52,015 nucleotides of DNA from Mesorhizobium sp. SARCC-RB16n. Lineage in GTDB: Bacteria; Pseudomonadota; Alphaproteobacteria; Rhizobiales; Rhizobiaceae. The position numbers and the translations under genes are program-made. The number at the start of each line of letters is the position of its first letter. The stretch's first letter is position 1. Positions 35,036 through 51,915 of this stretch are shown here, in pieces. Where the stretch lies: assembly GCF_008520305.1 (NCBI RefSeq), contig NZ_ML703260.1, positions 165,060 to 217,074 of the forward strand, given 5' to 3'. The notes below the pieces were generated by a model. It was not told the origin of the DNA. It searched no databases and worked only from the letters and a program-made list of their open reading frames with translations.

Positions 35036-35098
35036 GACTGGCCTCGACACAGACAATCGACCGGCGGGCCCATGTCCGCCGGTATCGGGGCGGATTCA

Positions 35099-36774: not shown

Positions 36775-36784
36775 AAGCCGCATC

Positions 36785-37546
36785 ATGATCCTCAAAGACC
36801 GCATCGCCGTGGTGACGGGCGCCGGCTCTGGCATCGGGCGCGCCGGCGCCATGATCATGGGCAGGGAAGGGGCCGTGGTCGTCATCGCCGACAGGGATGA
36901 GGCCGCAGGCGAAGCAACGGCCGCGGACATCCGCGCCACAGGTGGCCGGGCCGAGGCGATCGTGACTGACGTCTCCGACGACAGTGCGATCGACCAGCTG
37001 ATCGTCGGCACGCTCGACAGACATCAGCGCATCGACATCCTGCACAATCATGCCGGCATTCAGGTCGGCGGCACGCTGACCGAGGTCGAGACCGCCGGCA
37101 TGGATGCCTCCTGGCGGGTCAATGTGCGGGCGCAGTTCCTGGCGGCGAGGATCGTCATGCCGTCGATGATCGCGCAAGGCGGTGGCGTCATCCTCAACAC
37201 GGCTTCGAATTCGGGCGTCTTCTACGACCGCGAGATGATCGCCTATGCGACGTCGAAACATGCCGTGGTGGCGATGACCAGGCAGATGTCGCTCGACTAC
37301 GCCAGGCACAATGTGCGCGTCAACGCGCTCTGCCCGGGCTGGGTCGACACGCCCTTCAACGAACCGTTCATCGCCCAGATGGGCGGACGCGAAGCGATCG
37401 AAACCTATGTCCGCACCAAGATCCCGATGGGCCGCTGGGCCGTGGCCGAAGAGATCGCCGAGGCGATCCTGTTTCTCGTCTCGGACCGATCGTCCTTCAT
37501 GACCGGCCAGGCGCTGGTGATCGATGGTGGCGAAAGCATCGGCTGA
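36785..37546 (+). CDS. Short-chain dehydrogenase/reductase
   Basis: The 253-residue classical SDR has the TGAGSGIG cofactor loop (11-18), the NHAG element (88-91, with His in place of the usual Asn), and the catalytic Tyr154 and Lys158 in YATSK with Ser near 141. The tail ends in TGQALVIDGGESIG, as usual. Its place right behind the amine importer suggests it oxidises or reduces the imported compound or a derivative; the substrate cannot be told. It is followed by a long non-coding gap. Confidence 0.92.
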   Translation: MILKDRIAVVTGAGSGIGRAGAMIMGREGAVVVIADRDEAAGEATAADIRATGGRAEAIVTDVSDDSAIDQLIVGTLDRHQRIDILHNHAGIQVGGTLTEVETAGMDASWRVNVRAQFLAARIVMPSMIAQGGGVILNTASNSGVFYDREMIAYATSKHAVVAMTRQMSLDYARHNVRVNALCPGWVDTPFNEPFIAQMGGREAIETYVRTKIPMGRWAVAEEIAEAILFLVSDRSSFMTGQALVIDGGESIG

Positions 37547-37830
37547 GACCGCTGCTTTCATCTATCGACCTTCCTGTTTCAGCCCCTTTTCCTGCGGTTT
37601 CGCGGGACGCCGGACGGCACCGGACCATGGTCTGGCTGGCATGGGACTTCAGTGCCATGGCAGGCCAAAGGCGCGGGTTTCTTTTGATTTTCAATAAGTT
37701 ACGATTTCGAGGCGAGGCCCGCTCTCGGATTGAGACCGCATTTGTCTAAAGTTTACCAGGTGTGATTAGCGATTTCTCATACGCAGATGGTTCAGCGGTG
37801 GGCGAGAGCGCAATTCTCGAGGAGATCACC
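37547..37830. other. Non-coding gap before the secreted Gly/Asn protein
   Basis: I see no gene in this 284-bp stretch. Near 37619-37668 there is an imperfect inverted element around GGCATGG and CCATGGC, possibly a stem but without a T-run. The last 110 bp are relatively A/T-rich and probably hold the promoter of the next gene. Confidence 0.5.
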
Positions 37831-38646
37831 ATGACAAACCGGAAAACTCTGTTGGCGGCGCTGGCCGCATTGGCGCTTCTGGCGTCTCCGGCGCTCGCCG
37901 GCAACGGGCATGGCAATGGCGGGGGCAACGGCGGCGGCAACGGCAATAGTGGCGGCAACGGAAATGGTAAGGGCAACGCGAGCAGCAACGGCAACAGCGA
38001 TGCTTCGCATGGCAAGTCGTCGTCGGCACCCGGACAGGCAGCCAAGGCGGAGACGGAGACGACGGCCAGCACCACGGTCGATGCGACCACAACCGTATCG
38101 TCTGTACCGAACGACAAGAACATTCACGCCAAACTCGGCCGGCTGAACTCGCTGCAACGCAACGTCAACGCCTATATGAACTCCAAAAGCAAGAAGTTCG
38201 CCGCCATCCAGGCATTCGTGACCCAATCGGCGAAAGCCAAGAATGCGCAGGTAGCGGCTGCCGCGGCCGCCGCAACGGCCGCCGCCGCCCAGGCTCAACT
38301 GGATGCGCTGAATGCGCAATTGAGCGCGCTGACGTCGCTGACACCGGATCAGATCGCCGCCATGACGCCCGCGGACCAGGCGGCCCTGCCGGGACAGATA
38401 TCGGCGCTGCAAGCCGATGTCACCGCCCAGCAGGCAGTGGTCGCCGCCGACAATGCGGCTGCCGATCAAGCCGCGGCCGCGGCAACCGCGGCAGCGGTCG
38501 GCACCGACGACGCATCGCTCGGCGCGGCGCTGACAGACATGGCAAATAAGCCGGTCGACGCCGAGGTCACGGCCTGGGCCCAAGGTGTCCTTGCCGGCAA
38601 GATCGACCAGACGGCGACCAAGCTTCAAGCGGGAACGACGCCGTAG
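37831..38646 (+). CDS. Secreted Gly/Asn-rich and Ala-rich protein, unknown
   Basis: The 271-residue protein has a Sec signal peptide cleaved after ALA near residue 23. Residues 24-58 are low-complexity (repeated GNG, GGGNG and NSGGN blocks). The rest is Ala/Gln-rich and largely helical (about 105-235), likely a coiled-coil or stalk, with no cysteine and few charged residues. A GAGGAG site lies 7 nt before ATG 37831. A perfect hairpin terminator follows at 38684. I do not recognise a family; the layout suggests a cell-surface or periplasmic structural protein. Confidence 0.8.
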   Translation: MTNRKTLLAALAALALLASPALAGNGHGNGGGNGGGNGNSGGNGNGKGNASSNGNSDASHGKSSSAPGQAAKAETETTASTTVDATTTVSSVPNDKNIHAKLGRLNSLQRNVNAYMNSKSKKFAAIQAFVTQSAKAKNAQVAAAAAAATAAAAQAQLDALNAQLSALTSLTPDQIAAMTPADQAALPGQISALQADVTAQQAVVAADNAAADQAAAAATAAAVGTDDASLGAALTDMANKPVDAEVTAWAQGVLAGKIDQTATKLQAGTTP

Positions 38647-38782: not shown

Positions 38783-40290
38783 TCATACGTGTTTGCGGCC
38801 GCCGGCCTCGCGAAACCAGCTGTCGGGATAGGGATACCACCAGTCCTGGATGGCCGGCCTGTGGTCGATGATGACCATCTTCGAGCGGCGGAAGGCATCG
38901 AGACCCTGGCGCCCAAGTTCGCGGCCAAGGCCGGAAGCCTTCCAGCCGCCGAAGGGTAAAGCGTCATTGTCGATCAAGTGATTGTTGACCCAGACCATGC
39001 CGGCCTCCAGCCGTTCGGCCGCGTCGTGCGCCTCGGCCAGATCCGTGGTGAAGACCGAAGCGCCGAGCCCGAAGGGGCTGTCGTTGGCGAGCCGGATCGC
39101 CTCGTCGAAATCCTTGACCCGGCAGATGGCTGCGACCGGCCGAAACACTCTTCGCGCACGATCGCCATGTCAGGACTGACGCTGGTCAGGATCGTCGGCT
39201 CGTAGAACCAGCCGGTGTTGTGCGCCGGCGGAATGCGGCCGCCGGTGATGGCCTTGGCGCCGTTGGCAATGGCGTCGTCGACCAGCCGCATGACCTTGGC
39301 TCGTGCCGCCTCGCTGACCAGCGGACCGATCTCGGTCTTGTCCATGCCGTCGCCGATGCGCAGCGCGCGCGTCCTTTCGGCAAACAGTTCGACGAAGCGA
39401 TCATGCACGGCGTCGACGACGAAGAAGCGCTCGGCCGACGTACAGACCTGGCCGGTGAGGTGGAAGGCAGCGGTGACGCTGCCGGCCGCCGCGACGTCGA
39501 GCGGGGCGTGTTGGCTGATGATCAGCGGATCGCTGCCGCCGGCCTCGATGACGCAAGGCTTCATGCGCTCGGCGCAGGCCACCGCAACCATCTTGCCGGC
39601 TGCGACCGAGCCGGTGAAGGCAACGGCGTGGGTGCGGTCGGAGGCGATCAGCGCCTGCGCGGTGGCGGCACCTCCCGGCAGGCAGGACACCAACCCTTCT
39701 GGCAACGAGCGGAAAACCGTCATGTAGTCCAGCGTTGAGAGTGTCGTCACCTCGGCCGGCTTGATGATGCAGGCATTTCCGGCGGCAAGCGATGCGGCCA
39801 CCGTCCAGCACATCAGCAGGATCGGAAAATTGTAGGGCATGATGTGGACGGAGACGCCATAGGGTTCATAGCGCGCATACTGGAACGAGCCGGCCTGCGT
39901 CGTGCCGGCGACCTTACCGGCATCGTCGCGCGCCATCTCGGCATAGTAGCGGAAGATCGGCGCGCAATTGGCGATCTCGCCTATGGCCTCGGGATAGGGC
40001 TTGCCCATTTCGCGCACCATCAGCTCGGCGCAATGCGTGAAGTTGGCCGCCTCGATGGCGTTGGCGACGGCGTGCAGATGCTTTGCCCGGCTCTTGGCGT
40101 CGAGTTTCTTCCAGGCAAGCTGCGCCTTGGTCGCGGCAGTGAGGACAGCGTCGATCTCGCCATCGCTGGCCGCCGCGATCGCGCCGACCGTTTCCAGTGT
40201 GGCCGGATCGATCACCGGTTTGCTCGCGCCAACCATCGGCAGGTAGTCCGGGTTGACGAAGAAGGTTGGCCGGTCGGGTGAAAAATGCAT
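38783..40290 (-). pseudogene. Aldehyde dehydrogenase (NAD-type), frameshifted
   Basis: From ATG 40290 the protein is a normal aldehyde dehydrogenase up to about residue 385: FTGSVAAGKMV cofactor loop, Glu249 in VIEAGGSDP, and Cys283 in TGQVCTSAERF. At the REECFG motif (near 39138-39142) the frame shifts by one base, and the other frame carries the C-terminal part from PVAAICRVKDFDEAIRLANDSPFGLG to a normal end at 38783. One extra G or C at GGCCGG would give an intact enzyme of about 500 residues. By place it would oxidise the aldehyde of an amine-catabolic route, like PuuC. It may be a pseudogene or a sequence error. Confidence 0.88.
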
Positions 40291-40449
40291 AGTCGCTCCC
40301 CTGTGATCAGAGCCTTCTTGAGAATTCGTCCTGCGGAGTCAGATGGCGTGGTTTTCGAGAACCGGAGCGCAGAGGACATTCGGGTCCGTGAGCACGGGAA
40401 GCGGAGAAAACCGCGTCAGGTGACCGGCAGGTAGAATTATCGGGAAGGC

Positions 40450-40794
40450 TCAGCGGATCATGTAGACCTTCTTGATGGTCTCATGGACCGTGCAGACGCC
40501 CTTCCAGTCCTGCGGGAAGAAGGCTGCCGTGTCCGGCTCGATCTCGATGACCTCGCCGGACTCATGCACATAGGTGCAGCGCCCTTCGAGGAAGTGGCAG
40601 AACTCGTCATGGGTGACGTGGCAGTGCCACTTGCCCGGGGTACAGACCCAGAGGCCGCATTCCGAACGGCCTTCCTGTCCCTTGTAGAGCAGCTTGCCCG
40701 ACGTGTGGGACTGACCCTCGATCATAGTGGAGATCACGCCCCAGTCGACGAGGTCCGTGATGGCAAGAGGCGATTGCATGATCGGCGTGGTCAT
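40450..40794 (-). CDS. Cupin (DUF861 type), paralogue 1
   Basis: The 114-residue protein is a single small beta-barrel of the Cupin_3/DUF861 type: TDLVDWG, ECGLWVCTPGKWHC, DEFCHFLEGRCTYV and FFPQDWKGVCTVHETIKKVYM. The HxH metal site of classical cupins is not seen; a histidine of DEFCHF is the likeliest ligand. It is the last of three adjacent paralogues on this strand and starts at ATG 40794, 22 bp from the next. Related proteins include ureidoglycine-aminohydrolase-like cupins and sugar- or amine-handling proteins. Function not known. Confidence 0.88.
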   Translation of the reverse strand: MTTPIMQSPLAITDLVDWGVISTMIEGQSHTSGKLLYKGQEGRSECGLWVCTPGKWHCHVTHDEFCHFLEGRCTYVHESGEVIEIEPDTAAFFPQDWKGVCTVHETIKKVYMIR

Positions 40795-40816
40795 ATCGAA
40801 TTCCCTGGTAAAGTGC

Positions 40817-41158
40817 TCACCGGCACATGAAGGCCTTGGTCAGCGTTTGCGTGACGATGGAGATGCCGGTCCAACCGGCGGGAAAGAAGACGAGCGTACC
40901 GGCCTCGACCGGGATGTCCTCGCCATCGTCCCTGACATAACTGCCGCGCCCCGACAGGAAGTGGCAGAATTCGTCGGCGGCAAAGCTGACTTTACGGGTG
41001 CCCGGCGTGCACGACCACAGGCCGCACTCGCTCGATCCGTCCGGATTCCTGGAAAGGATCTTGCCTGAGGCCCGCGGCGCGCCCGCGAGCGTGTTGGCGC
41101 CCGCGCCCCAATCCTCCAGGTCCACGGTCGAGGCATCAGGCCAATGCGGTGTCGACAT
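40817..41158 (-). CDS. Cupin (DUF861 type), paralogue 2
   Basis: The 113-residue protein aligns end to end with its neighbours: DLEDWG, SECGLWSCTPGT, DEFCHFLSGRGSYV and FFPAGWTGISIV. It differs from the other two in the last strand (VTQTLTKAFM instead of VHETxxxVYM), so it is a diverged copy rather than a recent duplicate. It starts at ATG 41158. A rhizobial palindrome separates it from paralogue 3. Function not known. Confidence 0.88.
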   Translation of the reverse strand: MSTPHWPDASTVDLEDWGAGANTLAGAPRASGKILSRNPDGSSECGLWSCTPGTRKVSFAADEFCHFLSGRGSYVRDDGEDIPVEAGTLVFFPAGWTGISIVTQTLTKAFMCR

Positions 41159-41188
41159 GTCTTGCTCCTATGCGGTGGATTCTTGCTT

Positions 41189-41238
41189 GAGCATGATCTT
41201 GTCCGAAAAACCGGTTTCCACTTTTCGGGATCATGCTC
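41189..41238. repeat. Rhizobial intergenic palindrome (RIME-like)
   Basis: The 50-bp element begins GAGCATGATC and ends GATCATGCTC, with inner TCCGAAAA and TTTTCGG pairing; this is a long near-perfect hairpin. The sequence type is a well-known dispersed palindrome of rhizobial genomes. It ends exactly at the stop codon of cupin paralogue 3, in the gap to paralogue 2, and may stabilise or stop the transcript there. Confidence 0.85.
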
Positions 41239-41589
41239 TCAGGCCAGCATGTAGACGTTGCGCATGGTCTCATGCACGGTGCATTCGCCCGTCCAGCCGG
41301 CGGGGAACATGACCACGGTTCCAGTGGAGACTTCTATCACCTCGCCGACATCCGATCGGTAGGTCGCACGGCCGGAAACGAAATGGCACAATTCGTCGCG
41401 CGGGATCGAGAGCCGCCAGCGGCCCGGCGTGCAGACCCATACGCCGGATTCCGGCTGATTGTCAGGGCCTTTGTGCACGAGTTTGCCGGTGGAGTGCGAG
41501 GTGCCTTCGAGCGCCTCGGGCTGGGCACCCCAGTCGACGAGGTCGGTGCGGGTGGAGGCCTGATGGAGGTGCGGGGCGGAGGAGGTCAT
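41239..41589 (-). CDS. Cupin (DUF861 type), paralogue 3
   Basis: The 116-residue protein shares TDLVDWG, ESGVWVCTPGRW, DELCHFVSGRATY and FPAGWTGECTVHETMRNVYM with the two following genes. I chose ATG 41589 to match their N-terminal lengths. A GTG at 41637 is an alternative: it overlaps the stop of the glycosyltransferase gene as GTGA and has GGAGGGG 5 nt upstream, which would add 16 residues and mean coupling. It directly follows the glycosyltransferase gene, so it is likely part of that pathway. Confidence 0.85.
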   Translation of the reverse strand: MTSSAPHLHQASTRTDLVDWGAQPEALEGTSHSTGKLVHKGPDNQPESGVWVCTPGRWRLSIPRDELCHFVSGRATYRSDVGEVIEVSTGTVVMFPAGWTGECTVHETMRNVYMLA

Positions 41590-41633
41590 GGGCGTGTTCC
41601 CGCGCCGATGGCTCGGCATGTCAAATATCTCGC

Positions 41634-42908
41634 TCACAGCAGCCCCTCCAGCAAACCCGCCGCCTTCTCCGGCCCGTTCTGCGCATGCATCTGTGCCGAC
41701 GTCTTCGCCAGCTTCGCCTTCATCTTCGGATCGGTCAGGCAGGCTTCGATCTTTGTGATCAACTCGGCATCGGTCCAATCGTAGCGTGGCATGCGAAAGC
41801 CGTGGCCGGTTTCCTCCACGCGGGTGGCGTTGTCGTGGCCGTCCCAGACATAGGGCATGATGATGGCCGGCTTGCCGAAATAGAGGCACTCGGTGAACGA
41901 GTTGTTGCCGCCGTGGTGGATGACGGCATCGACCTGGGGAATGACCGAAGGCTGCGGGAACCAGCTGTCGACGATGACGTTGGCAGGCACGTCGGTGTAC
42001 TGGTCCTTGTAGCCGCCGACGTTGACCAGCGCGCGGTAGCGGGTCGTTCCCAGCGTCGCGATGATGCGCTTCAAGAGATCTACATCGCCGGCGCCCAGGC
42101 TGCCGAAGGAGACATAGAGCAGCGGCCCGTCATTGTTCTCAGTGAAAGTCGGCACCGTGTAGGGCTTTTCCTGCCGCACGCAGCCTTCGAGGTACTGGAA
42201 TTTTGTCGAGTCGAGCGGGTGGCGGCGCTTGAACTTTGCCGCCTCGGGGTAAAGCAGCAGATTCAAGTATGGCGACGCCTCGAAGAACTGGCCGACCGGA
42301 TAGGCTGCCTCATTGTTGGCTGTGAGGAACGCGTTGAAGTCGTCATGGATCGGCTTGATCACCGCGTTGAAATGGTCGCGGTAGCGCTGGTGTCCGGCGT
42401 GGTCGTTTTCGCCGCAGCCGGAGAGATGCGGGGGGATGCCCTCGTCCTCGATCTCGTTTTCCGAGCAGGAGATGACGCGCACCCAGGGCTTGCCGTACTG
42501 CTTGATCGCCGGGAACAGGATGACGTTGTCGACGCAGATGACATCCGGCTTGATGGCGGCCAGAACGCGCGGCAAATCCTTCTGCGCCCATTTGGCGCTG
42601 TCGACGATCGCCGTCCAGCAGTCCTTCACGTAATTGTCGACCTGGTCGTAGGGCGATTTGCGGAAGTTCGGGATGTGGCCGTTGATGAAATCCTCCCAGA
42701 ATTTCGCCATCTGCTCGGGTGGCATCGGTTCGGAGAGGTTCACCGGATGCGCCTCGAAGCCATAGCCCTTGTAGACATCGACAAAGCCGGGGTCGGACAG
42801 GAACACCGCCTTGTGGCCGCGCGCCTCGACGGCTTGCGCGATGCCGACGGAATTGAGCGCCGGGCCGTAGGCGGCTTCGGGAAAAAACGCGATCGTCTTT
42901 TGCGCCAT
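41634..42908 (-). CDS. MGT/GT1-like glycosyltransferase A
   Basis: The 424-residue protein has a GT-B fold: an N-terminal half with TIAFFPEAAYGPALNSVGIAQ, a middle DVICVDNVILFPAIKQYG, then LLYVSFGSLGAGDVDLL and the donor-binding region IHHGGNNSFTECLYFGKPAIIMP followed by WDGHDNATRVEETG. This is the macrolide/UGT-like (GT1) pattern, though the usual D-Q pair before N is here D-G-H-D-N. It has no signal or membrane helix. ATG 42908 has GGAGGA 8 nt upstream. It lies between the importer ATPase and cupin 3 and has a full-length homologue at 47946. The acceptor is unknown, possibly an amine or amino compound. Confidence 0.85.
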   Translation of the reverse strand: MAQKTIAFFPEAAYGPALNSVGIAQAVEARGHKAVFLSDPGFVDVYKGYGFEAHPVNLSEPMPPEQMAKFWEDFINGHIPNFRKSPYDQVDNYVKDCWTAIVDSAKWAQKDLPRVLAAIKPDVICVDNVILFPAIKQYGKPWVRVISCSENEIEDEGIPPHLSGCGENDHAGHQRYRDHFNAVIKPIHDDFNAFLTANNEAAYPVGQFFEASPYLNLLLYPEAAKFKRRHPLDSTKFQYLEGCVRQEKPYTVPTFTENNDGPLLYVSFGSLGAGDVDLLKRIIATLGTTRYRALVNVGGYKDQYTDVPANVIVDSWFPQPSVIPQVDAVIHHGGNNSFTECLYFGKPAIIMPYVWDGHDNATRVEETGHGFRMPRYDWTDAELITKIEACLTDPKMKAKLAKTSAQMHAQNGPEKAAGLLEGLL

Positions 42909-42924
42909 CAGGCTATTCCTCCAC

Positions 42925-43998
42925 TCACTCTGCGAAAATTCTGACATCGGCGGCGTCCCAGCCGAGTTCGACATGGTCGCCCGATGCAACCGGCCGCCGG
43001 TCGGCGGCGTCGGCGGTGACACGCACCAGGAACGGTTTTGGCGATCGCGGCGTGCGGACATGCAGCTGCAGGTCGAGCCCCTGATAGGCCAGCGCCTCGA
43101 CCACGCCCGTGGTGCGGTTGGCGGATTCCGCCTCTGGGAACAGCCGGACGCGTTCGGGCCGCACCGACGCCACTGCCGATGCTCCCGGCGTGAGCGCTGT
43201 GGGAACCCTGCCGGCGATGCGCGCCCCATTCACCGCCACAACGCCATCGGGTGACGCCTTGCCCGAGACAAAGTTCATCACGCCGATGAAGTCGGCGACA
43301 AAACGGTCGGCCGGATGTTCGTAGACCGCGTGCGGCGTGTCGCATTGCAAGAGCTTGCCATCCCTGAGCACCGCCATGCGGTCGGCCATGACCAGCGATT
43401 CCTCCTGGTCATGGGTGACGATGACGAAGGTGATGCCGACCTCGTGCTGCAGGCGCTTCAATTCCAGTTGCATGGCGCCGCGCAGCTTCTTGTCGAGCGC
43501 GCCAAGCGGCTCGTCGAGCAGCAGCAGGCGGGGGCGCTTGACCAGCGCGCGGGCCAGCGCGACGCGCTGCTTCTGGCCGCCCGACAATTGCTCGGGCTTG
43601 CGGTCGGCGAAGGGGACGAGTTCCGTGGTCGCCAGGATGGCGTCGACGCGGGAGCGGATCTCGGCTGAAGGCAAACGCTCCATCTCCAGCCCATAGGAGA
43701 CATTGGCCCGGACGCTCATATGGGGGAACAGCGCGTAGGACTGAAACATCAGATTGACCGGCCGCTTGTTGGGCGGCGTCCTGGCGATATCGTTGCCGTC
43801 GAGCAGGATGCGCCCGTCGCTCGGCGTCTCGAAGCCGGCGAGCATGCGCAAGAGCGTGGTCTTGCCGCAGCCCGATGGACCGAGCAGCGCGAAGAACTCG
43901 TTTTCCCTGATGTCGAGCGAGATGCCGTCGACGGCGGTGACGCGGCCGAAATTCTTCGACACATGATCGATGGCCAGCAGCGTGCGTGGTTCGCTCAT
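42925..43998 (-). CDS. Polyamine-type ABC transporter ATP-binding protein (PotG-like)
   Basis: The 357-residue ATPase has Walker A LLGPSGCGKTT (38-48), FQSYALFPHMSVRANVSYGL, LSGGQKQRVALARAL and LLLDEPLGALDKKLR, then a TOBE domain with RPERVRLFPEAES. It differs from the ATPase at 32755 in the PPNKRPVNLMFQ and KQR details, so the two importers are distinct systems. The start overlaps the permease stop by ATGA. It ends 16 bp before glycosyltransferase A. Confidence 0.95.
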   Translation of the reverse strand: MSEPRTLLAIDHVSKNFGRVTAVDGISLDIRENEFFALLGPSGCGKTTLLRMLAGFETPSDGRILLDGNDIARTPPNKRPVNLMFQSYALFPHMSVRANVSYGLEMERLPSAEIRSRVDAILATTELVPFADRKPEQLSGGQKQRVALARALVKRPRLLLLDEPLGALDKKLRGAMQLELKRLQHEVGITFVIVTHDQEESLVMADRMAVLRDGKLLQCDTPHAVYEHPADRFVADFIGVMNFVSGKASPDGVVAVNGARIAGRVPTALTPGASAVASVRPERVRLFPEAESANRTTGVVEALAYQGLDLQLHVRTPRSPKPFLVRVTADAADRRPVASGDHVELGWDAADVRIFAE

Positions 43999-44789
43999 TG
44001 GCCGATCATTCCCCGGTTGAGCCGCTGCGACAGGGTCAGCGCGGTGATCGAGACCGCCATGACGATGGTTGCCAGCGCATTGATCTCCGGCGTGATGCCA
44101 AAGCGGATCATGGCGTAGATCTGCATCGGCAACGTGGTCGAGGCGCGGCCGGCGCCTGCGGTGAAGAAGGCGATGATGAACTCGTCGACCGAAAGCGTGA
44201 AGGCGAGCAGCGCGCCGGCGATGACAGCCGGCAGGATGACGGGCAATGTCACGCGCCGGAAGGTGGTCATGGCTGAGGCACCGAGATCGGCGGAAGCCTC
44301 GACGATCGACCAGTCGAAGCTCTTCAACCGGGCACGCACCACCGAACAGACGAAGGCCAGGTTGAACACGACATGGGCGAGGATGATGGTGTGCAGGCCC
44401 ATGGTGAGGTTGAGCATCGAAAAGAACGACAAGAGCGCGATCGCCAACACGATGTCGGGGATGATCATCGGCGCGAAGATCAGCGCTTCGAGCCCCTTGC
44501 CATATTGCCGGCGCATCTCGATGCCGATCGCCAGCAAGGTGCCGAGCAAGGTGGCGATGGTTGTCGAGACCAGCGCCACGATCAGCGTGTTGAGGGCGGC
44601 CGAGAGAATGGCGGAATTACCGGCCAGCGAGGCATACCATTTCAGCGAAAAGCCAGACCACGCCGTCGGCAGCCCGCCTTCGTTGAAGGACAGCGCCACC
44701 AGCACTGCGATCGGGATATAGAGGAAGGCGAACACGAGGCTCAACACGAGCCAAAGCGTGCGCCGCGCGGCTGGTGAGCGTTCAGCCAT
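43995..44789 (-). CDS. Polyamine-type ABC transporter permease (PotI-like)
   Basis: The 264-residue inner-membrane protein has about six helices, SFNEGGLPTAWSGFSLKWY after the first one, the EAA loop FDWSIVEASADLGASAMTTFRRVTLPVILPAV and FTLSVDEFIIAFFTAG with ASTTLPMQIYAMIRFGITPEINALAT, a PotC/PotI signature. The start ATG 44789 lies in the 3' end of the upstream permease (8-bp overlap) and its stop overlaps the ATPase start, so the transporter genes are coupled. Confidence 0.95.
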   Translation of the reverse strand: MAERSPAARRTLWLVLSLVFAFLYIPIAVLVALSFNEGGLPTAWSGFSLKWYASLAGNSAILSAALNTLIVALVSTTIATLLGTLLAIGIEMRRQYGKGLEALIFAPMIIPDIVLAIALLSFFSMLNLTMGLHTIILAHVVFNLAFVCSVVRARLKSFDWSIVEASADLGASAMTTFRRVTLPVILPAVIAGALLAFTLSVDEFIIAFFTAGAGRASTTLPMQIYAMIRFGITPEINALATIVMAVSITALTLSQRLNRGMIGQ

Positions 44790-45660
44790 TCGCGTTGCCC
44801 TCGGCTGCTTCCACACGGCCAGAGGCGCGATTGGCGGCAATCGCCTGCGCCGTCAGCACTAGCAGCATGATGGCGATCAGCGCCATCGCCAGTGCGGCAC
44901 CAAACGGCCAGTCATTGGCGGTCAGGAACTGGTCGTAGACGAGATTGCCGATCATCTGGAAACGGCCGCCGCCGAGCAGTGCCGGGGTGACGAAATTGCC
45001 GATCGACAGTACGAAGACGAAGACGGCACCGGCGGCGATACCGGGCACGGTCAGCGGCAGGATGACGCGACGAAACGTCGTCATGGCCGAAGCGCCGAGA
45101 TCGCGCGAGGCTTCGGCGAGTTCCGGATTGAGCCGCGACAGCGGTGCGTAGCAGGCGAGGATGACGAAGGGCAGATAGTTGTACACGAGGCCAGCGATGA
45201 CAGCGCCCTCGGTGTAGAGCATCGACGGCGGCTCGCCGGTATAGCCCAGCCAGCGCAGGAGCTGGGTGATAAGCCCTTGGCGGTTGAGCAGTACGATCCA
45301 GGCATAGGTGCGGATCAGATAGTTGGACCAGAACGGCAGCACCGCGAAGAACAGGAATACCGATTGCCAGCGGCGCGGGGCGGCCGCGATCGCATAGGCG
45401 GCGGCATAGCCGATCACCACTGCGATCAGCGTGGCGGTGCCGGCAATGCGCGCGGATTTCAGGAAAATGCCGGCATAGAGCGGGTCGAAGACCAGCCCGA
45501 AATTCTCCAGCGTGAAGGTGTAGTCGATGCCGCCATAGATGCCGCGCCGGAAGAAAGCCAGCGCCAGCACCAGCACGCATGGCACCACCATTAGCGCGAT
45601 CAACCAGACCAGCGCCGGGGCCATCAGCAGGGAGGAGCGGGAGGGCGTGAAGGAACGCAA
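44782..45660 (-). CDS. Polyamine-type ABC transporter permease (PotH-like)
   Basis: The 292-residue inner-membrane protein has about six helices, the EAA loop LSRLNPELAEASRDLGASAMTTFRRVILPLTVPGI and NFVTPALLGGGRFQMIGNLVYDQFL, as in PotB/PotH. No ATG lies near the expected start. I chose TTG 45660 (RSFTPSRSSLLMAPALVW follows; GGAAG 5 nt upstream) because longer starts would overlap the binding-protein gene. It is 40 bp downstream of that gene. Confidence 0.9.
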   Translation of the reverse strand: MRSFTPSRSSLLMAPALVWLIALMVVPCVLVLALAFFRRGIYGGIDYTFTLENFGLVFDPLYAGIFLKSARIAGTATLIAVVIGYAAAYAIAAAPRRWQSVFLFFAVLPFWSNYLIRTYAWIVLLNRQGLITQLLRWLGYTGEPPSMLYTEGAVIAGLVYNYLPFVILACYAPLSRLNPELAEASRDLGASAMTTFRRVILPLTVPGIAAGAVFVFVLSIGNFVTPALLGGGRFQMIGNLVYDQFLTANDWPFGAALAMALIAIMLLVLTAQAIAANRASGRVEAAEGNANG

Positions 45661-45700
45661 GCTTGCTTCCAGGACAGTGATTGCCAGAAACTGACGCCGC

Positions 45701-46765
45701 TTACTGCGCGGCCTTGATCTCGCTGACGATCTTGGAATAATCGCGCTGGGCTTCGCCGACGTCACGCAACTGCTCGAATTTGACGAGGTCGGCGACCGGC
45801 ATCGCCATGTTGGGGAATTTTGCCAGGAAGTCGGCCGGCAGGCTTTCCATGGCCGGCTTGTTCGGCACTTTGTAGTCGATGTTCTGGGCCGCCCAGGCGT
45901 GGTTCTTGGCGTCGAGCATGAAGTTGACGAACTGGAAGGCGGCGTCCTTGTGCTCGGAAGCCTTCATCACCACCATCGTGTCGACCCAGAGATCCGAACC
46001 TTCCTTCGGGATGACGTATTTGATCTCCGGCTTATCGGCGATGCCGTAATTGCACCAGCCGTCCCAAGCCTGCACCATCAGCGCTTCGCCCGAAACCAGC
46101 TTCGAATAGAAGGTGGTATCATCATAGGCGAGCAGGGTTTTCTTGGCCGAGATTAGCAAATCCTTGACCTCGGCCATCTTGGCCGGGTCGGTCTCGTTGA
46201 CGGAGAAACCCTTGTCGAGCTGGCCGGCGGCGAGCAGCCAGCGGTCGGTCGCCAGCATGGTGGTCTTGCCCTTCAGCTCGTCGGACGGCGCGAGCAGATC
46301 GCTCCAGCTTGTCGGCGCGGTCTTGACCAGATCCGAGCGATAGCAGAGGCCGGTCGTGCCCCAGGTATAAGGCACGGAGAAAGTGTTGCCGACATCGTGC
46401 GGCAGCTTGGTCGCTTCGGGATAGAGATTGGCCAGGTTGGGGATCTTGGCGTGGTCCATCGGCTCGGTCAGGCCGAGCTTGTTCAGCACCTCGGCGAAAG
46501 GCGAAGAGACGAAGACCACGTCATAACCCTTGCCGCCGGCGGCAATCAGCTTGCCCATGATCTCTTCATTGGTGGCGTGCACCACGACTTCTCCGGAGAC
46601 GCCCGTCGCCGTCTTGAAAGACGCCATGGCGTCGGGCGCCATGTAGCCGTCCCAGTTGGAGATGACGAGGTCGGTGGCCATTGCCGGCGCGGACAGCGCC
46701 ACGGCAAGGCCGAGAGCGATTGGGGGCATTCTCAGCGCACGGCGCCGCAGGCTGGTCGCAGTCAT
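45701..46765 (-). CDS. Polyamine-type ABC transporter substrate-binding protein (PotF-like)
   Basis: The 354-residue periplasmic protein has a Sec signal with an Arg-rich start and cleavage after AMA near residue 29, then DLVISNWDGYMAPDAMASFKTATGV, the YDVVFVSSPFAEVLNKLGL region and YTWGTTGLCYRSDLV, typical of putrescine/spermidine binding proteins. GGGAG lies 6 nt before ATG 46765. It is the first gene of the minus-strand arm (importer, glycosyltransferase A, cupins, aldehyde dehydrogenase). The ligand is likely an amine or an amine conjugate. Confidence 0.93.
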   Translation of the reverse strand: MTATSLRRRALRMPPIALGLAVALSAPAMATDLVISNWDGYMAPDAMASFKTATGVSGEVVVHATNEEIMGKLIAAGGKGYDVVFVSSPFAEVLNKLGLTEPMDHAKIPNLANLYPEATKLPHDVGNTFSVPYTWGTTGLCYRSDLVKTAPTSWSDLLAPSDELKGKTTMLATDRWLLAAGQLDKGFSVNETDPAKMAEVKDLLISAKKTLLAYDDTTFYSKLVSGEALMVQAWDGWCNYGIADKPEIKYVIPKEGSDLWVDTMVVMKASEHKDAAFQFVNFMLDAKNHAWAAQNIDYKVPNKPAMESLPADFLAKFPNMAMPVADLVKFEQLRDVGEAQRDYSKIVSEIKAAQ

Positions 46766-46863
46766 GGCGGACTCCCATTCCGGTTGGTTCGTCGAATTCG
46801 TTTTGGACCCGCGCAACAGCGCCGCTGCATCGATCCCGTTCCCTCGGTCTTTTTATCGCCGAT

Positions 46864-46873
46864 TGTCCTGACA
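46864..46873. promoter_or_regulatory. Candidate GntR operator in the divergent promoter
   Basis: TGTCCTGACA is a perfect TGTC/GACA palindrome with 2-bp spacing and fits the general GntR operator layout (GT, short gap, AC). It sits in the 231-bp region between the importer and the GntR gene, next to an AGTAC repeat (46874-46895) and TTGACA/TTGACG minus-strand elements near 46899-46914. Confidence 0.4.
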
Positions 46874-46996
46874 GTACTATTGCAGAAAAAAGTACGTCAA
46901 TCCATAATTTGTCAACCGGCCGAGGAATCTGGCCGATTGCGTCCACGGGGCCGATCGGTCAAACCAGTCCGGCTACGTCCGTTCCCGAGAGCAGTC

Positions 46997-47935
46997 ATGC
47001 AAGCCTTAGCCCGAAGACCTCGCACCAACCATCTCGACCTGGCCCAGCGCATCCTCGATGTGGCGCGGCAGCGTGGGTTTGCGCCTGGCACGCGCCTGCC
47101 CGAGCAGCAGATCGCCTCGCTCTGCAGTGTCTCACGCACCCCGGTGCGTGCTGCGCTCAGCTTGCTCGCGGAACAGGGTGTCGTGCGCTGGGAAGCCGAC
47201 ACTGGTTATCTCCTGGCGATCGACCTCGCCGCCCAGCCGGCGATAGCAGCCGAATTGCCCGCCGCCGAGGAAGACGAGCTTGCCGAAGCCATCCTGCGCG
47301 ACCGGTCGGCCCGGCGTCTGGACCAGACAGTCACCGTCGCCGGGCTGATGCGGCGGTACAGCGCTGAGCGAAAGACGGTACTAAAATCCCTGAACAGACT
47401 GACGGAAGAGAACTTGCTCGATCGTGCGCCGGGCCAGTCCTGGCTGTTCCGCCGCGCACCGGACGATCCGGAGGCGCAGGGCGAAAGCTACGAGTTCCGG
47501 CTTTTGCTGGAGCCAGCGGCGATCCTGACGCCGGGCTTCAGGCTGGACGGCGCGCGCGCCGCGATGTTGCGGCAGGGCATGGAGGCGCTGTCGGCACTGC
47601 CCGACTCTGCGTTCGATACTCGCGAGTTCCAAAGGCTCGACATCGATTTTCACGGCATGATCGCCGAAGGCTCCGCCAACCGCTTCGTCGCCGACGCGCT
47701 GGCCGGTCATCTCCGGCTGAGGCGGCTTCCCGGCATCTATGCCGGCGTCAACGTGTTCCGGCTGAAGCAATCGCTGCGTGAGCACCTGAACATACTCGAC
47801 CATCTCGAAAGCCGGCAGTATGAGGTTGCTGCCGATCTGCTTCGCGTCCACCTGCGGCTTTCCCGCAGCCAGCGACCGCTGGCGGCCAGCCGCGGCGCGC
47901 CCGCGCTGTTCGGCATGTTCAGCCGGCCGGAATGA
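46997..47935 (+). CDS. GntR-family regulator with two winged helices
   Basis: The 312-residue protein begins with a GntR winged helix (about 14-74: FAPGTRLPEQQIASLCSVSR, TPVRAALSLLAEQGVVRW). A second winged-helix-like segment follows (about 92-152: LDQTVTVAGLMRRYSAERKT, VLKSLNRLTEENLLDR), then an FCD-like helical effector domain (about 163-300, with DFHGMIAEGSANRFV). Ordinary FCD regulators have one such helix-turn-helix and about 230 residues. The start is ATG 46997; a longer frame upstream would cross the divergent promoter. It leads the plus-strand arm, 10 bp before glycosyltransferase B, and probably controls both arms with the imported amine or its product as effector. Confidence 0.87.
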   Translation: MQALARRPRTNHLDLAQRILDVARQRGFAPGTRLPEQQIASLCSVSRTPVRAALSLLAEQGVVRWEADTGYLLAIDLAAQPAIAAELPAAEEDELAEAILRDRSARRLDQTVTVAGLMRRYSAERKTVLKSLNRLTEENLLDRAPGQSWLFRRAPDDPEAQGESYEFRLLLEPAAILTPGFRLDGARAAMLRQGMEALSALPDSAFDTREFQRLDIDFHGMIAEGSANRFVADALAGHLRLRRLPGIYAGVNVFRLKQSLREHLNILDHLESRQYEVAADLLRVHLRLSRSQRPLAASRGAPALFGMFSRPE

Positions 47936-47945
47936 AGAGGATTAA

Positions 47946-49229
47946 TTGACGCGTAGAGCGAGCCCGACCATCGCGCTGTTTCCCGAAGCCAGTTTCGGGG
48001 CGGCGTTGAATTGCGTCGGCATCGCACAGGCGCTGCGCGCGAAGGGTGCGCGGCCGGTGTTCATCTGCCATGCCGGCTTCTCCGGCGTCTTTGCCGACTA
48101 TGGTTTCCAGGAATACCAGCTGCCGACCGAGGAGCCGCTGAGCGTCAGCGAGCGCCAAAGCTACTGGCAGGCCTTCGTGCGCCGGCATCTGCCACATTTC
48201 CGGCTGAGCCCGATCGACCAGCTCGAAACCTATGTCGCGCCGACCTGGCAAGCGATCGTCGACACGGCGCTCAACTCCGAGGCGCCGCTGCGCCAATTGC
48301 TGGCGCGGCTGAAGCCCGACGCGGTGGTGCTCGACAATGTCATCATGTTCCCGGCGATCGCCGCAGCCGGCTGTCCCTGGGTGCGCGTCGTCTCCTGCGC
48401 CGAGACGGAGCTGCCCGACGCCCAAGTGCCGCCCTATCTGTCCGGGCTTGCCTCGGATGACCCGCAACGCGGGGCGTTCGAAACCCGCTATCTCGCGGCT
48501 TCGGCTCCGGCGCATGATCGCTTCAACCATTTTCGCGCGGATTGCGGGCTGGCGCCACTTCCGAAAGGCCTGTTTCTCGAAGCCTCGCCCGACCTCAATC
48601 TGCTCCTGACGCCTTCGATCGTGCGCCGCGAACGCGCCGCGCCGCTCGACCCCGAGCGCTTCGTCTATCTCGAAGGCTGCGTGCGCTCGGAAGGACCGTT
48701 CGAGGTGCCGGTTTTTCCCCGCAATGGCGGGCCGCTGGTCTATGTCAGCTTCGGCAGCCTCGGCGCCATGGATGTCGGGCTGATCGAGCGCATGCTCGCC
48801 GTCTTCGACAGGCTGCCGGCCCGCTTCATCGTCAATGTCGGCGGCCTCCGCGACGCCTACCGCGCGGTGCCCGACAATGTCTATCTCGACGCCTGGTTTC
48901 CGCAGCCCTCGGTGGTGGCGAAGTCGGACCTGTTCATCCACCACGGCGGCAACAACAGCTTTTGCGAGGCGCTGCGCTTCGGCGTGCCGTCGCTGATCAT
49001 GCCCTATTGCTGGGACGGACACGACAATGCGCAACGCGCCGGCGAAACCGGCGTCGGCGACCATATCGGCCGTGACGGCTGGACCGAAGGGGGACTGGAG
49101 AAGGCTATTCTCGGCTTGCTGGCCGATGACGCCATGCGCGCCCGCCTTAGGGACAATGCAGCCGAGATGGCGCTGAAACCCGGAACGGATGTGGCCGCGC
49201 AAGCCATTCTCTCCCTGATACGGACATGA
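47946..49229 (+). CDS. MGT/GT1-like glycosyltransferase B
   Basis: The 427-residue protein is homologous over its whole length to glycosyltransferase A: TIALFPEASFGAALNCVGIAQ, VVLDNVIMFPAIAAAGCPWVRV, LEGCVRSEGPFEVP, LVYVSFGSLGAMDVGLI, IHHGGNNSFCEALRFGVPSLI and CWDGHDNAQRAGETG. It is a cytosolic GT-B enzyme. The TTG start at 47946 has GAGG about 6 nt upstream. Its stop overlaps the start of the gamma-glutamyl ligase gene as ATGA, so the two are co-translated, which ties the glycosyl step to the amine pathway. It is not a recent duplicate, since many positions differ. Substrates are unknown. Confidence 0.85.
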   Translation: MTRRASPTIALFPEASFGAALNCVGIAQALRAKGARPVFICHAGFSGVFADYGFQEYQLPTEEPLSVSERQSYWQAFVRRHLPHFRLSPIDQLETYVAPTWQAIVDTALNSEAPLRQLLARLKPDAVVLDNVIMFPAIAAAGCPWVRVVSCAETELPDAQVPPYLSGLASDDPQRGAFETRYLAASAPAHDRFNHFRADCGLAPLPKGLFLEASPDLNLLLTPSIVRRERAAPLDPERFVYLEGCVRSEGPFEVPVFPRNGGPLVYVSFGSLGAMDVGLIERMLAVFDRLPARFIVNVGGLRDAYRAVPDNVYLDAWFPQPSVVAKSDLFIHHGGNNSFCEALRFGVPSLIMPYCWDGHDNAQRAGETGVGDHIGRDGWTEGGLEKAILGLLADDAMRARLRDNAAEMALKPGTDVAAQAILSLIRT

Positions 49230-50614
49230 ACGAAATGCTTGACAAGAACACCAACACCTCGCTCTCCAGCGGCAACGATCCCAAGGCTTGGCTCACGCAG
49301 CACGGCATCACCGAAGTCGAATGCCTGGTGCCAGACATGAACGGCGTGCTGCGCGGCAAGGCGCTGCCGACCGCCAAATTCCTCAAGGCGCTGGAAGACC
49401 GCGCACTCTATCTGCCGAGTAGCGCCTTCCTGGTCAGCATCGACGGCCGTTATTCCGGCTCGATCGACGAGGGTTTTGCCTATTCGGACCCCGACATGCG
49501 CATGGTGCCCGATGTCTCGACGCTGTGCCTGGCGCCCGGGGCGGTGGCTGGTAAGGCCTATGTCTTCGCCGACGCCTTCCACATGGATGGCAGGCCGTGG
49601 ATGGCTTCGCCCCGCCAAGTGCTGCGCGCCGTGCTCGATCTCTATCGCCGGCGCGGCTGGCGCGCGGTGGTGGCGCCGGAACTCGAATTCTATCTCACCG
49701 CGCCCAATCCCGATCCGGACAGACCGCTGACCGCACCGGTCGGCGCCAACGGTCGCACTGAAACCGTACAGCATCCCTATGACATGGCCGCGCTGGAAGA
49801 ATTCGAGCCGGTGATCCGGCGCGTCTACGACTATGCCGCCGCCGCCGGCGTGCCGCTCGACACGTTGATCCATGAATCGGGCACGGCTCAGCTGGAGATC
49901 AACCTGCTGCATGGCGACGCGCTGCCGCTGGCCGACCAGGTGCTTTTGTTCAAGCGGTTTACGCGCCAGGCCGCGCAGCAATGCGGCATGCATGCGACCT
50001 TCATGGCCAAGCCGATCGCGGCCCAGGCCGGCAGCTCGATGCATCTGCACATGTCCGTCGTCGACGAGACCGGCAACGCGCTGTTCGCCAGTACTGACGA
50101 CGCCGACACCGAGATGTTCGGCCATTTCATCGGCGGCCTGCAGAAGTACATTCCCGAAATCATGCCGCTGTTCGCGCCCAACGTGAACTCGTTCCGCCGC
50201 ATCCGGCCCAACCACAGCGCGCCGGCCAACATCGAGTGGTCGCACGACAACCGCTCCTGCGGCCTGCGCGTTCCGGCGGGAGGGCGGGCGGCGCGACGGG
50301 TCGAAAACCGGTTGCCGGGTGCGGATTCCAATCCTTATCTGGCGATCGCCGGTTCGCTGCTTGCCGGCTATCTCGGCGTCGAGCAGAAGCTGGCGCGCTC
50401 GGCCGAAGCGTCGGGCAACGCCTACAAGATCAGGAGCACGCTGCCGAAGACAATGGAGGAAGCGCTCGACCGCTTCACCGCCTGCGACCCGGTGCGGGAA
50501 CTGCTCGGCGAGGACTTCTTCCAGACCTATCTGCGCGTCAAGAGCGTCGAGCTCGACCTGTTCCAGAGCGTGGTGACGAGCTGGGAACGCGACCATCTGC
50601 TGCTGAAGGTGTGA
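49226..50614 (+). CDS. Glutamine-synthetase-like gamma-glutamylamine ligase (PuuA-like)
   Basis: The 462-residue protein belongs to the glutamine synthetase fold: ITEVECLVPDMNGVLRGKALP, VAPELEFYLT with the metal-binding glutamates, ESGTAQLEINL, and GSSMHLHMSVVDETGNALFA with the metal-binding histidine, then RRIRPNHSAPANIEWSHDNRS. VPDMNGVLRGK and this overall shape are typical of gamma-glutamylputrescine synthetases (PuuA) rather than GlnA. It should use ATP to join glutamate to an amine. ATG 49226 overlaps glycosyltransferase B; the FAD oxidase follows after 2 bp. The amine substrate is inferred from context. Confidence 0.92.
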   Translation: MNEMLDKNTNTSLSSGNDPKAWLTQHGITEVECLVPDMNGVLRGKALPTAKFLKALEDRALYLPSSAFLVSIDGRYSGSIDEGFAYSDPDMRMVPDVSTLCLAPGAVAGKAYVFADAFHMDGRPWMASPRQVLRAVLDLYRRRGWRAVVAPELEFYLTAPNPDPDRPLTAPVGANGRTETVQHPYDMAALEEFEPVIRRVYDYAAAAGVPLDTLIHESGTAQLEINLLHGDALPLADQVLLFKRFTRQAAQQCGMHATFMAKPIAAQAGSSMHLHMSVVDETGNALFASTDDADTEMFGHFIGGLQKYIPEIMPLFAPNVNSFRRIRPNHSAPANIEWSHDNRSCGLRVPAGGRAARRVENRLPGADSNPYLAIAGSLLAGYLGVEQKLARSAEASGNAYKIRSTLPKTMEEALDRFTACDPVRELLGEDFFQTYLRVKSVELDLFQSVVTSWERDHLLLKV

Positions 50615-50616
50615 CC

Positions 50617-51915
50617 ATGGCATCTTCAACGGGTTTCAATTCCGGTCTCGATATCGGCAAATCCTACTATGTCGCCACCGCCAATCCGGCGCCGGACCAT
50701 CCGGCGCTTGCCGGCGATGTCGATGCCGACCTGGTTGTCGTCGGTGGCGGCTGCACCGGCCTGTCGGCCGCCCTTCACGCGGCTGAGCGCGGCCTCAAGG
50801 TGGTGCTCTTGGAAGGCGGCAGGATCGGCTGGGGAGCGTCGGGGCGCAATGGCGGCCAGATGATCCCCGGTCTGCGCAAGGGGGCCAAGGGTTTGGTCAA
50901 GCTCTATGGGGCCGAGCGCGCCAAGGTGCTGTTCGACCTTGCTTTCGAAGCGCGCGGCCTGGTGCTCGACATCATCGAGCGCCATGCCATCGATTGTGAT
51001 CTCAGGCTCACCGGCCATCTGGTCGGCGCGGTCAATGGCTCCGACCTCAGGGATTTGGAAGAAGAGGCCAAATGCCTCGAGAGCGTGATGAAATTCCGCG
51101 ATGTCGAGATACTCTCGGCGGCGGAGGCCCGGGCCAAGGTCGACACGCCCTATCACGGCGCGATGTATGAACCGCTCGGCGGCCACATGCACCCGCTGAA
51201 CTATACGCTCGGACTTGCCCGCGCGGCTGTCGCGGCCGGCGTCACCATCCACGAGAATTCAGTGGCCGTGAAGCTGGAGCGGGAGCCGTCGATCCGGGTC
51301 TCGACGGCAAAGGGATCGGTGCGGGCCAGACATGTCGTGCTGGCGGGCGACGCGTTGCTCAACGGGCTGGAGCCGCGCGTCAACAGCCGCATCATGCCGG
51401 TCGGCAACTATATCGTCGCCACCGAGCCGCTGGAGGGCGCGCGCAACGTCATCCCGGCCAACGTCGCGGTGTCCGACACGCGCTTCGTCGTCAACTACTA
51501 CCGCATGTCGGCGGATGGACGGCTGCTGTTCGGCGGCGGCGAGCGCTATACGCCGTCACCCCCGGCCGACATCGCCGGCTTCGTGCGACCGCACATGGAG
51601 GCCACCTTCCCGCAGCTCAAGGGCTGCCGCATCGATCATGCCTGGGGCGGGCTGGTGTCGGTGACGACGTCGCGGCTGCCGCATGTCGGGCACTATGGCG
51701 AGGTCTATTTCGCGCATGGCTATTCCGGCAAGGGCGTCATCCTGTCAACGCTGTCGGGCAAGCTACTGGCGGAAGCCATTACCGGCGACGCATCGAGGCT
51801 CGACCTGTTCTCGACACTGACCCCGATGCCGTTCCCGGGTGGGACGGCCCTGCGCGGGCCGCTCTATGTGCTGGGGATGCTGTGGTACGCGATGCGGGAC
51901 CGCATCAAGCATTGA
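50617..51915 (+). CDS. FAD-dependent amine oxidase (PuuB-like)
   Basis: The 432-residue DAO-family protein has the FAD-binding VVVGGGCTGLSAALHAAERG (40-59), GWGASGRNGGQ, and near the C-terminus WGGLVSVTTSRLPHVG and FAHGYSGKGVILSTLSGKLLAEAI. These fit gamma-glutamylputrescine oxidase (PuuB), which releases ammonia and gives an aldehyde. It is the last gene of the plus arm, 2 bp after the ligase. The aldehyde dehydrogenase needed next is the frameshifted gene at 38.8-40.3 kb. Confidence 0.92.
   Translation: MASSTGFNSGLDIGKSYYVATANPAPDHPALAGDVDADLVVVGGGCTGLSAALHAAERGLKVVLLEGGRIGWGASGRNGGQMIPGLRKGAKGLVKLYGAERAKVLFDLAFEARGLVLDIIERHAIDCDLRLTGHLVGAVNGSDLRDLEEEAKCLESVMKFRDVEILSAAEARAKVDTPYHGAMYEPLGGHMHPLNYTLGLARAAVAAGVTIHENSVAVKLEREPSIRVSTAKGSVRARHVVLAGDALLNGLEPRVNSRIMPVGNYIVATEPLEGARNVIPANVAVSDTRFVVNYYRMSADGRLLFGGGERYTPSPPADIAGFVRPHMEATFPQLKGCRIDHAWGGLVSVTTSRLPHVGHYGEVYFAHGYSGKGVILSTLSGKLLAEAITGDASRLDLFSTLTPMPFPGGTALRGPLYVLGMLWYAMRDRIKH

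Follow-up and report, generated by a model that had tools for sequence, protein, structure and literature searches.

Results

A constant glycosyltransferase–cupin unit and its exchangeable partners

We analyzed a 52,015-nt stretch of the genome of Mesorhizobium sp. SARCC-RB16n (assembly GCF_008520305.1, contig NZ_ML703260.1, positions 165,060–217,074; the window), in which two divergent gene arms (38783–51915) bring together an importer, two GT1-like glycosyltransferases (GT-A and GT-B), three cupins, an aldehyde dehydrogenase (ALDH), a ligase and an oxidase. Across relatives, the constant unit of this locus is the importer, GT-A, the cupins and ALDH, divergent from a GntR regulator and GT-B, and does not include the ligase; ligase and oxidase are accessory, and the ligase looks like a local add-on. 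Our best reading, to which we assign a probability of roughly 40%, is that the constant unit takes up a singly charged amine and glycosylates it transiently, with recycling of the sugar. An initial annotation, made from the sequence alone, had instead read the locus as a Puu-like amine pathway extended by two glycosyltransferases.

The gene inventory of that annotation is borne out by the open reading frame (ORF) map and family searches (Table 1). The minus arm encodes a PotD/F-like binding protein, two permeases, a PotA-type ATPase, GT-A, three Cupin_3/DUF861 proteins and ALDH, and the plus arm a GntR/FCD regulator, GT-B, a glutamine-synthetase-fold ligase and a DAO-family oxidase. GT-A and GT-B are paralogues (48% identical over 425 columns), and GT-B overlaps the ligase in an ATGA at 49226–49229. 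Dozens of loci show the same genes in the same arrangement, so it is not a product of chance.

To separate constant from variable parts, 13 window proteins were mapped by tblastn onto 80 named loci, each count being taken over those loci with enough flank; the ligase was counted at ≥55% identity, a threshold that misses more diverged ligases. The loci were split into a first group of 52 (L011–L061 and L067; GT-A ≥90% identical) and a second group of 28 (GT-A 81–88%); most of the named loci whose GT-A is 92–96% identical belong to Mesorhizobium. The importer ATPase precedes GT-A in 79/79 loci, a cupin follows it in 75/75 and ALDH in 67/67, and GT-B occupies the other arm in 72/72. GT-B is followed by the ligase in 49 of 51 first-group loci and in none of 19 second-group loci, with identical counts for the oxidase. 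Both first-group exceptions belong to M. soli, and one of these (L061) has a 54-residue ligase match at this place. In three of the 19, a 63–65% identical ligase closes the ALDH arm; L069, whose upstream flank is missing and which is outside the 19, likewise has its ligase on that arm. Other genes join the unit in the second group: a saccharopine-dehydrogenase-like protein after ALDH in 15/28 loci (Rhizobium, Shinella, Pararhizobium, Ancylobacter and others) and a second ALDH after GT-B in 11. The GT–cupin pair is common to all 12 distant alphaproteobacterial loci (L107–L118). Automatic ORF choice, which hit the wrong strand in several GC-rich stretches, served only to select proteins for Pfam.

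The two parts also come apart within the nearest genus. Among 119 of its genomes, surveyed for the ligase and GT-B (a query that also finds GT-A), 106 carry the ligase (the match in G822 spans only residues 7–340) and 60 a full-length GT-B. By coordinates, GT-B adjoins the ligase in 60/60 of the latter (counting L157, with a 62% identical ligase), and 46 genomes keep the ligase without a full-length GT-B or GT-A. We read 13 such GT-less loci over 14–20 kb (L121–L124, L149–L156 and L158). Ligase and oxidase are full-length in 13/13; immediately before the ligase, every locus but L153 retains a remnant of GT-B, weak (34–65% identity) in 6 of the 12, and the core importer, GT-A, cupins and ALDH are gone except for scraps. 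Because remnants lie beside an intact ligase and oxidase while the core is absent, the GT module was lost, in one or several events, and the ligase–oxidase pair was retained. These relic strains are natural knock-outs in which the separateness of the two modules can be tested.

A GT1-like pair lacking the loop histidine

Against the MGT model TIGR01426, the two glycosyltransferases score 112.1 and 108.7 bits, below the cut-off of 260, and their nearest solved relatives are the spider-mite enzymes UGT203A2 and UGT202A2. An AlphaFold2 model of GT-A (mean pLDDT 90.3) matches UGT203A2 by Foldseek with E 7e-34, TM 0.90 and 28% identity, and the TM of 0.90 to 7mco/7lvy assigns it to the GT-B fold. 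The GT1 loop His of UGT203A2, which we take to be the catalytic base, aligns (HMMER, ungapped there) to P16 of GT-A and to an Ala of GT-B. Among 190 distinct GT sequences (many from one genus; a 37% identical Streptomyces protein, L127, was left out), this position is Pro in 108, Ala in 82 and never His. The donor-side motif HHGGNNS/T is conserved throughout this set, H331 being Gln in 2/190 (L105 has Gln for the first His of HHGG); invariant are E11, G15, N19, G269, S270, H332, G333, G334, N335, N336, W355, D356, G357, D359 and N360. At the donor site, the Gln of what we take to be the GT1 DQ pair is replaced by Gly in 190/190, and is kept in the Streptomyces relative. To our knowledge, the loss of the His, the DG pair and the invariant Glu11 and Asn19 are unusual for GT1.

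GT-B is set apart from the remaining rows of a 44-row tree by one branch (support 100/99); end branches are mostly longer for GT-B than for GT-A at the same loci, and the tree tool warns of long branches. At E 1e-50 the family occurs in 13/385 genomes of a class survey and 8/398 of a phylum survey. In two of the distant loci, L117 and L118, a pair of GT-family genes is encoded on opposite strands, and a cupin gene lies between the two or adjoins them; L118 also has a GcvT-type gene. A kinship of the GTs with MocD and MocE, which we take to be mannopine deconjugases, was considered as a conjecture. Agrobacterium records were absent from the matches listed in plasmid searches (GT-A at E up to 1e-15, 16/16; GT-B at E up to 1e-8, best 40 of 68), in which MocD itself was not compared. 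The genetics of mocD have been reported, with no fold information in the part of that article consulted (PMC6341043).

Sugar-activating genes beside the pair in some relatives

An APH-fold kinase gene lies between cupin and ALDH in L063/L064, in L120 and in genus g377. The kinases of L143 and L063 are nearest to AmgK, an anomeric MurNAc/GlcNAc kinase, with 246.1 and 231.5 bits against a cut-off of 500. GT-A is present in 17/25 g377 genomes, and the locus kinase (74–100% identity) stands beside it in 17/17 of these and in 0/8 GT-negative genomes, whose only AmgK-like homologue is 36–41% identical. A single TGA lies within the matched stretch in 5 of the 17 kinases; in L144 (G495) it ends a 343-aa ORF. 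An aldose 1-epimerase gene is added in L063 and L064. On haloarchaeal plasmids of Natrialba magadii (pNMAG01) and Natronorubrum aibiense (L125/L126), an IclR gene adjoins GT, cupin and ALDH, followed by ROK and phosphohexomutase genes, with genes for an FAD-dependent oxidoreductase and an aminotransferase near both loci. Two unrelated gene sets could thus supply sugar-1-phosphate beside the same GT–cupin pair.

Importer and its presumed substrate

The amine-type importer of the initial annotation is borne out by the ATPase, which passes TIGR01187 (373.5 bits, cut-off 355.6) and so falls in the PotA family, and by the PotD/F-like binding protein. Residues of the latter were placed by alignment to PotD: positions W34, Y37, W229, W255, D257 and Y293 are retained in 90 relatives (with one Phe at W255), and D168 and E171 are replaced by Thr and Trp in 90/90. 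If, as we assume, D168/E171 and D257 form the two amine sites of PotD, then only one of the two is kept. Since the pocket keeps D257 and the aromatic residues and loses D168/E171, a single amine anchor within an aromatic box would suit a singly charged amine and not a diamine. Some 2.6 kb from the GT–cupin pair of L114 lies a 2Fe-2S protein gene (L114:5011–6045); its DmmA-like match stays below the threshold (26.6 of 33 bits) and gives a faint hint of methylated amines.

Cupins, ligase, oxidase and a broken dehydrogenase

All three cupins pass PF05899 (61.7, 55.1 and 55.0 bits; gathering cut-off 23.5), and a model of cupin 3 (pLDDT 95.8) is closest to DUF861 proteins and EutQ. Cupins 1 and 3 may work as a pair, since they are fused in one ORF in L068 and L107.

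The ligase, described initially as PuuA-like, scores 193.6 bits against the gamma-glutamylputrescine synthetase model (GGputSyn; cut-off 650) and is therefore not assigned to the PuuA type. Its place among amine ligases, as the initial annotation had it, is upheld by the residues: the D50 equivalent is Ser in 67 and Thr in 4 of 71 sequences and the E327 equivalent Ser in 71/71, and loss of these ammonium-site acids, the mark of gamma-glutamyl-amine ligases applied here, is described for amine ligases in the consulted part of PMC6529630. For the oxidase, none of the best 25 of 70 models is matched above its curated cut-off, the top one being AmaA (201.2 of 600 bits). Downstream of the oxidase, some Mesorhizobium loci carry coenzyme A transferase genes (L146:757–3615, plus a thiolase; L123:13233–14090; L155:3549–4406), and L149 and L152 a DeoR-type regulator.

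In the window, ALDH is split over two frames by a break near 39150. Among its relatives (85 found, one of them cut by a contig end, with some loci representing the same genome counted twice), the reading frame is uncut in 83/84, and intact proteins measure 499–503 aa, 80 of them 502 aa. The sole exception is L033 (Mesorhizobium sp. WSM3626), where the lesion is another one, and two different lesions hint at relaxed selection in this group.

Surroundings of the locus

By ORF layout and translation, a second ABC importer (32755–36788) lies in the window ahead of an SDR-like gene (36785–37546), and a plus-strand ORF (37762–38646), whose 294-aa product has very high contents of Gly, Asn, Ala and Gln, adjoins the ALDH end. 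Many Mesorhizobium loci have a second polyamine-type importer, 28–54% identical, in the neighborhood of the module, and several GT-less strains keep it.

Table 1 Genes of the two divergent arms, with positions in the window
Feature	Position	Strand	Basis and remarks
PotD/PotF-type substrate-binding protein of importer	45701..46765	-	PotD model 124 bits (cut-off 582); conserved PotD positions
Importer permease 1	44782..45765	-	ORF limits; true start may fall inside
Importer permease 2	43995..44816	-	ORF map and mapping on relatives
Importer ATPase, PotA type	42925..43998	-	TIGR01187 above cut-off
GT-A, GT1-like (GT-B fold), without GT1 catalytic His	41634..42908	-	Family search, model, alignment
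Cupin 1 (Cupin_3/DUF861)	41239..41592	-	Family search
Cupin 2	40817..41158	-	Family search; missing from some relatives
Cupin 3, DUF861 fold	40450..40794	-	Family search and model
ALDH, two ORFs (40290-38974 and 39148-38783)	38783..40290	-	Frame broken in this strain
GntR/FCD regulator	46997..47935	+	Family search
GT-B, second GT1-like paralogue	47946..49229	+	Family search, alignment to GT-A
Gamma-glutamyl-amine ligase by residues, glutamine synthetase fold, accessory	49226..50614	+	Family search and residues
FAD-dependent DAO-family oxidase, accessory	50626..51915, start approximate	+	Family search

Discussion

From the gene content, conservation, residue changes and neighbor changes observed here, we derive a model in which every reaction and substrate is predicted. 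The locus would consist of two adjacent modules, of which the GT/cupin/ALDH core has its own importer and GntR regulator. The importer, judging by its pocket, would bring in a compound with one cationic amine end, and GT-A (together with GT-B in many lineages) would use an NDP-sugar to glycosylate the amine after import, or an intermediate formed early in the route; such an amine may be nucleophilic enough to make the GT1 histidine base dispensable. The sugar would serve as a transient handle, like the gamma-glutamyl group in the Puu route. Cupins, given their strict neighborhood, may act on the glycosylated intermediate, an amine-cleaving enzyme would free the aldehyde for ALDH, and the freed sugar would be recycled via sugar-1-phosphate to NDP-sugar. 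The amine-cleaving part appears exchangeable, with the ligase and DAO oxidase as candidates in Mesorhizobium, the saccharopine-dehydrogenase-like protein in many Rhizobium/Shinella types, and the FAD-dependent oxidoreductase near the haloarchaeal loci. A broader proposal, which we regard as doubtful, is a catabolic route shared by Alphaproteobacteria, two haloarchaea and at least one genus from a different class within the phylum. In this route, a His-less GT1-like enzyme would attach a sugar to a nitrogen compound, to protect or carry it temporarily during the action of the cupins and of the exchangeable amine-cleaving enzymes, and the sugar would afterwards be freed and re-activated via sugar-1-phosphate, as a glycosyl counterpart of gamma-glutamylation.

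Several observations weigh against transient glycosylation of an imported amine. No enzyme for removal of the sugar was identified, and the reactions are predicted from sequence. Sugar activation is unevenly linked: Mesorhizobium loci are without kinase, mutarotase or ROK/mutase genes (an unlinked AmgK-like gene, 35–43% identical, occurs in 116/118 genomes), L063 and L064 are the only two of the 28 second-group loci with the kinase, and the haloarchaeal ROK (glucokinase-like) gene lies on the strand opposite GT, cupin and ALDH. The pocket argument is weak, because 34 binding proteins of neighboring second importers (~30% identical) share W34, Y37, W229, W255 and D257; at the places of D168/E171 these mostly have H/Q. 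The partition of the ligase is breached by L157, a locus of the same genus but not among the 80 named, in which GT-A is 85% identical and a 62% ligase and 78% oxidase stand behind GT-B. Because ALDH is frame-broken in this strain, the module may be in decay. Finally, since the GT1 His is Pro or Ala and the donor-site Gln is Gly in every sequence compared, the GTs may not be transferases at all.

Two alternatives are serious rivals. The first, which we consider somewhat unlikely, holds that the importer already brings in a glycosylated amine (an Amadori-type compound, an aminosugar conjugate or a glycosylamine), which the GT-like proteins dismantle, the sugar then being salvaged by kinase, mutarotase or mutase. 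The catabolic setting with an importer, the enzymes for free sugars in some clusters (AmgK-like kinase, aldose 1-epimerase, ROK) and the loss of the GT1 base would all fit such a route; however, the phosphohexomutase next to ROK and the AmgK-like kinase favor sugar-1-phosphate and NDP-sugar over glycolysis, and the binding protein is of the polyamine type. The second, unlikely in our judgment, is that the pair are not glycosyltransferases, but use the GT-B fold for another reaction or for binding or scaffolding with the cupins. It would account for the missing His, the change of DQ to DG and the invariant Glu11 and Asn19, but less readily for the conserved donor-side motif and for the genomic link to sugar-activating enzymes in some lineages.

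We consider quite improbable the proposal of the initial annotation that the GTs act with the ligase, within a Puu route, on a gamma-glutamylated or glycosylated amine. What stands of it is the amine-type importer, the amine-type ligase and the membership of two GT1-like proteins in the locus; the coupling of GTs to ligase within a Puu pathway finds no support. In the co-occurrence check that it had proposed, GT-B adjoins the ligase wherever a full-length GT-B exists in the genus, but the ligase is absent behind GT-B from all 19 second-group loci at the 55% threshold and survives in the 46 genomes without full-length GTs, so that ligase and oxidase are not the constant part that a Puu locus would require. 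Retention of the pair after GT loss counts, by the same check, against a tight GT–ligase pathway. The lack of a visible PuuD, used initially as an argument for a glycosylated compound, is a weak argument. Away from the locus, 12/12 related genomes have one strong match to PF07722 (224–255 bits), the family to which PuuD belongs, and since 14/14 well-known genomes used as controls match it too, this identifies the family and not PuuD. The Puu route as the core reading was dropped on these grounds, namely co-occurrence across loci and genomes and the unlinked PuuD-family gene. Detoxification, in which the GTs would inactivate an amine-bearing antibiotic or xenobiotic admitted by the importer, is highly improbable, for although the named proteins nearest to the GTs are macrolide GTs and spider-mite UGTs, the linkage to importer, ALDH and cupins is constant and the GTs score far below the cut-offs of inactivating MGT families.

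If transient glycosylation is correct, bacteria would break down amines by a second chemical logic in addition to gamma-glutamylation and direct oxidation, and a role would be assigned both to a GT1-like subfamily and to a group of DUF861 cupins, whose names in the matched records are so far only generic. The annotation of such loci is also corrected, in that the pathway does not center on the ligase. In keeping with the initial annotation, which knew of no described pathway with this set, no paper on it was among the matches listed in the open-access literature (most subscription journals lie outside). Its parts are of known kinds; what appears to be undescribed is their combination, along with a GT subfamily that lacks the His and is constantly linked to cupins.

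Compared with known systems, the locus resembles the Puu pathway (PuuA, PuuB, PuuC, PuuD and importer) in its PotD/F-type importer, GS-fold ligase, DAO-type oxidase and ALDH, and in the unlinked PF07722-family gene of relatives. It differs in that GT, cupin and ALDH form the constant part, ligase and oxidase being added in one group and scoring below the curated cut-offs of the models listed, and in a binding pocket without the second amine site. With GlnA4/PauA7-type gamma-glutamyl-amine synthetases, the ligase shares the loss of the D50/E327-equivalent acids, but it falls below the gamma-glutamylputrescine synthetase cut-off. AmgK is the nearest relative of the locus kinase of some relatives, a gene that the window does not have; this kinase scores below the curated cut-off and, in g377, is a separate copy beside an unlinked 36–43% identical homologue. 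EutQ-like DUF861 cupins have the same fold and Pfam family as the cupins described here, which differ in that three paralogues follow one another, with two sharing an ORF in L068/L107. Lastly, GT1 and macrolide glycosyltransferases (MGT, OleD, YjiC) and UGT203A2/202A2 share the GT-B fold and HHGGNN donor motif with the locus pair, in which the loop His is Pro or Ala in 190/190, DQ has become DG and identity to the nearest solved structure is 28%.

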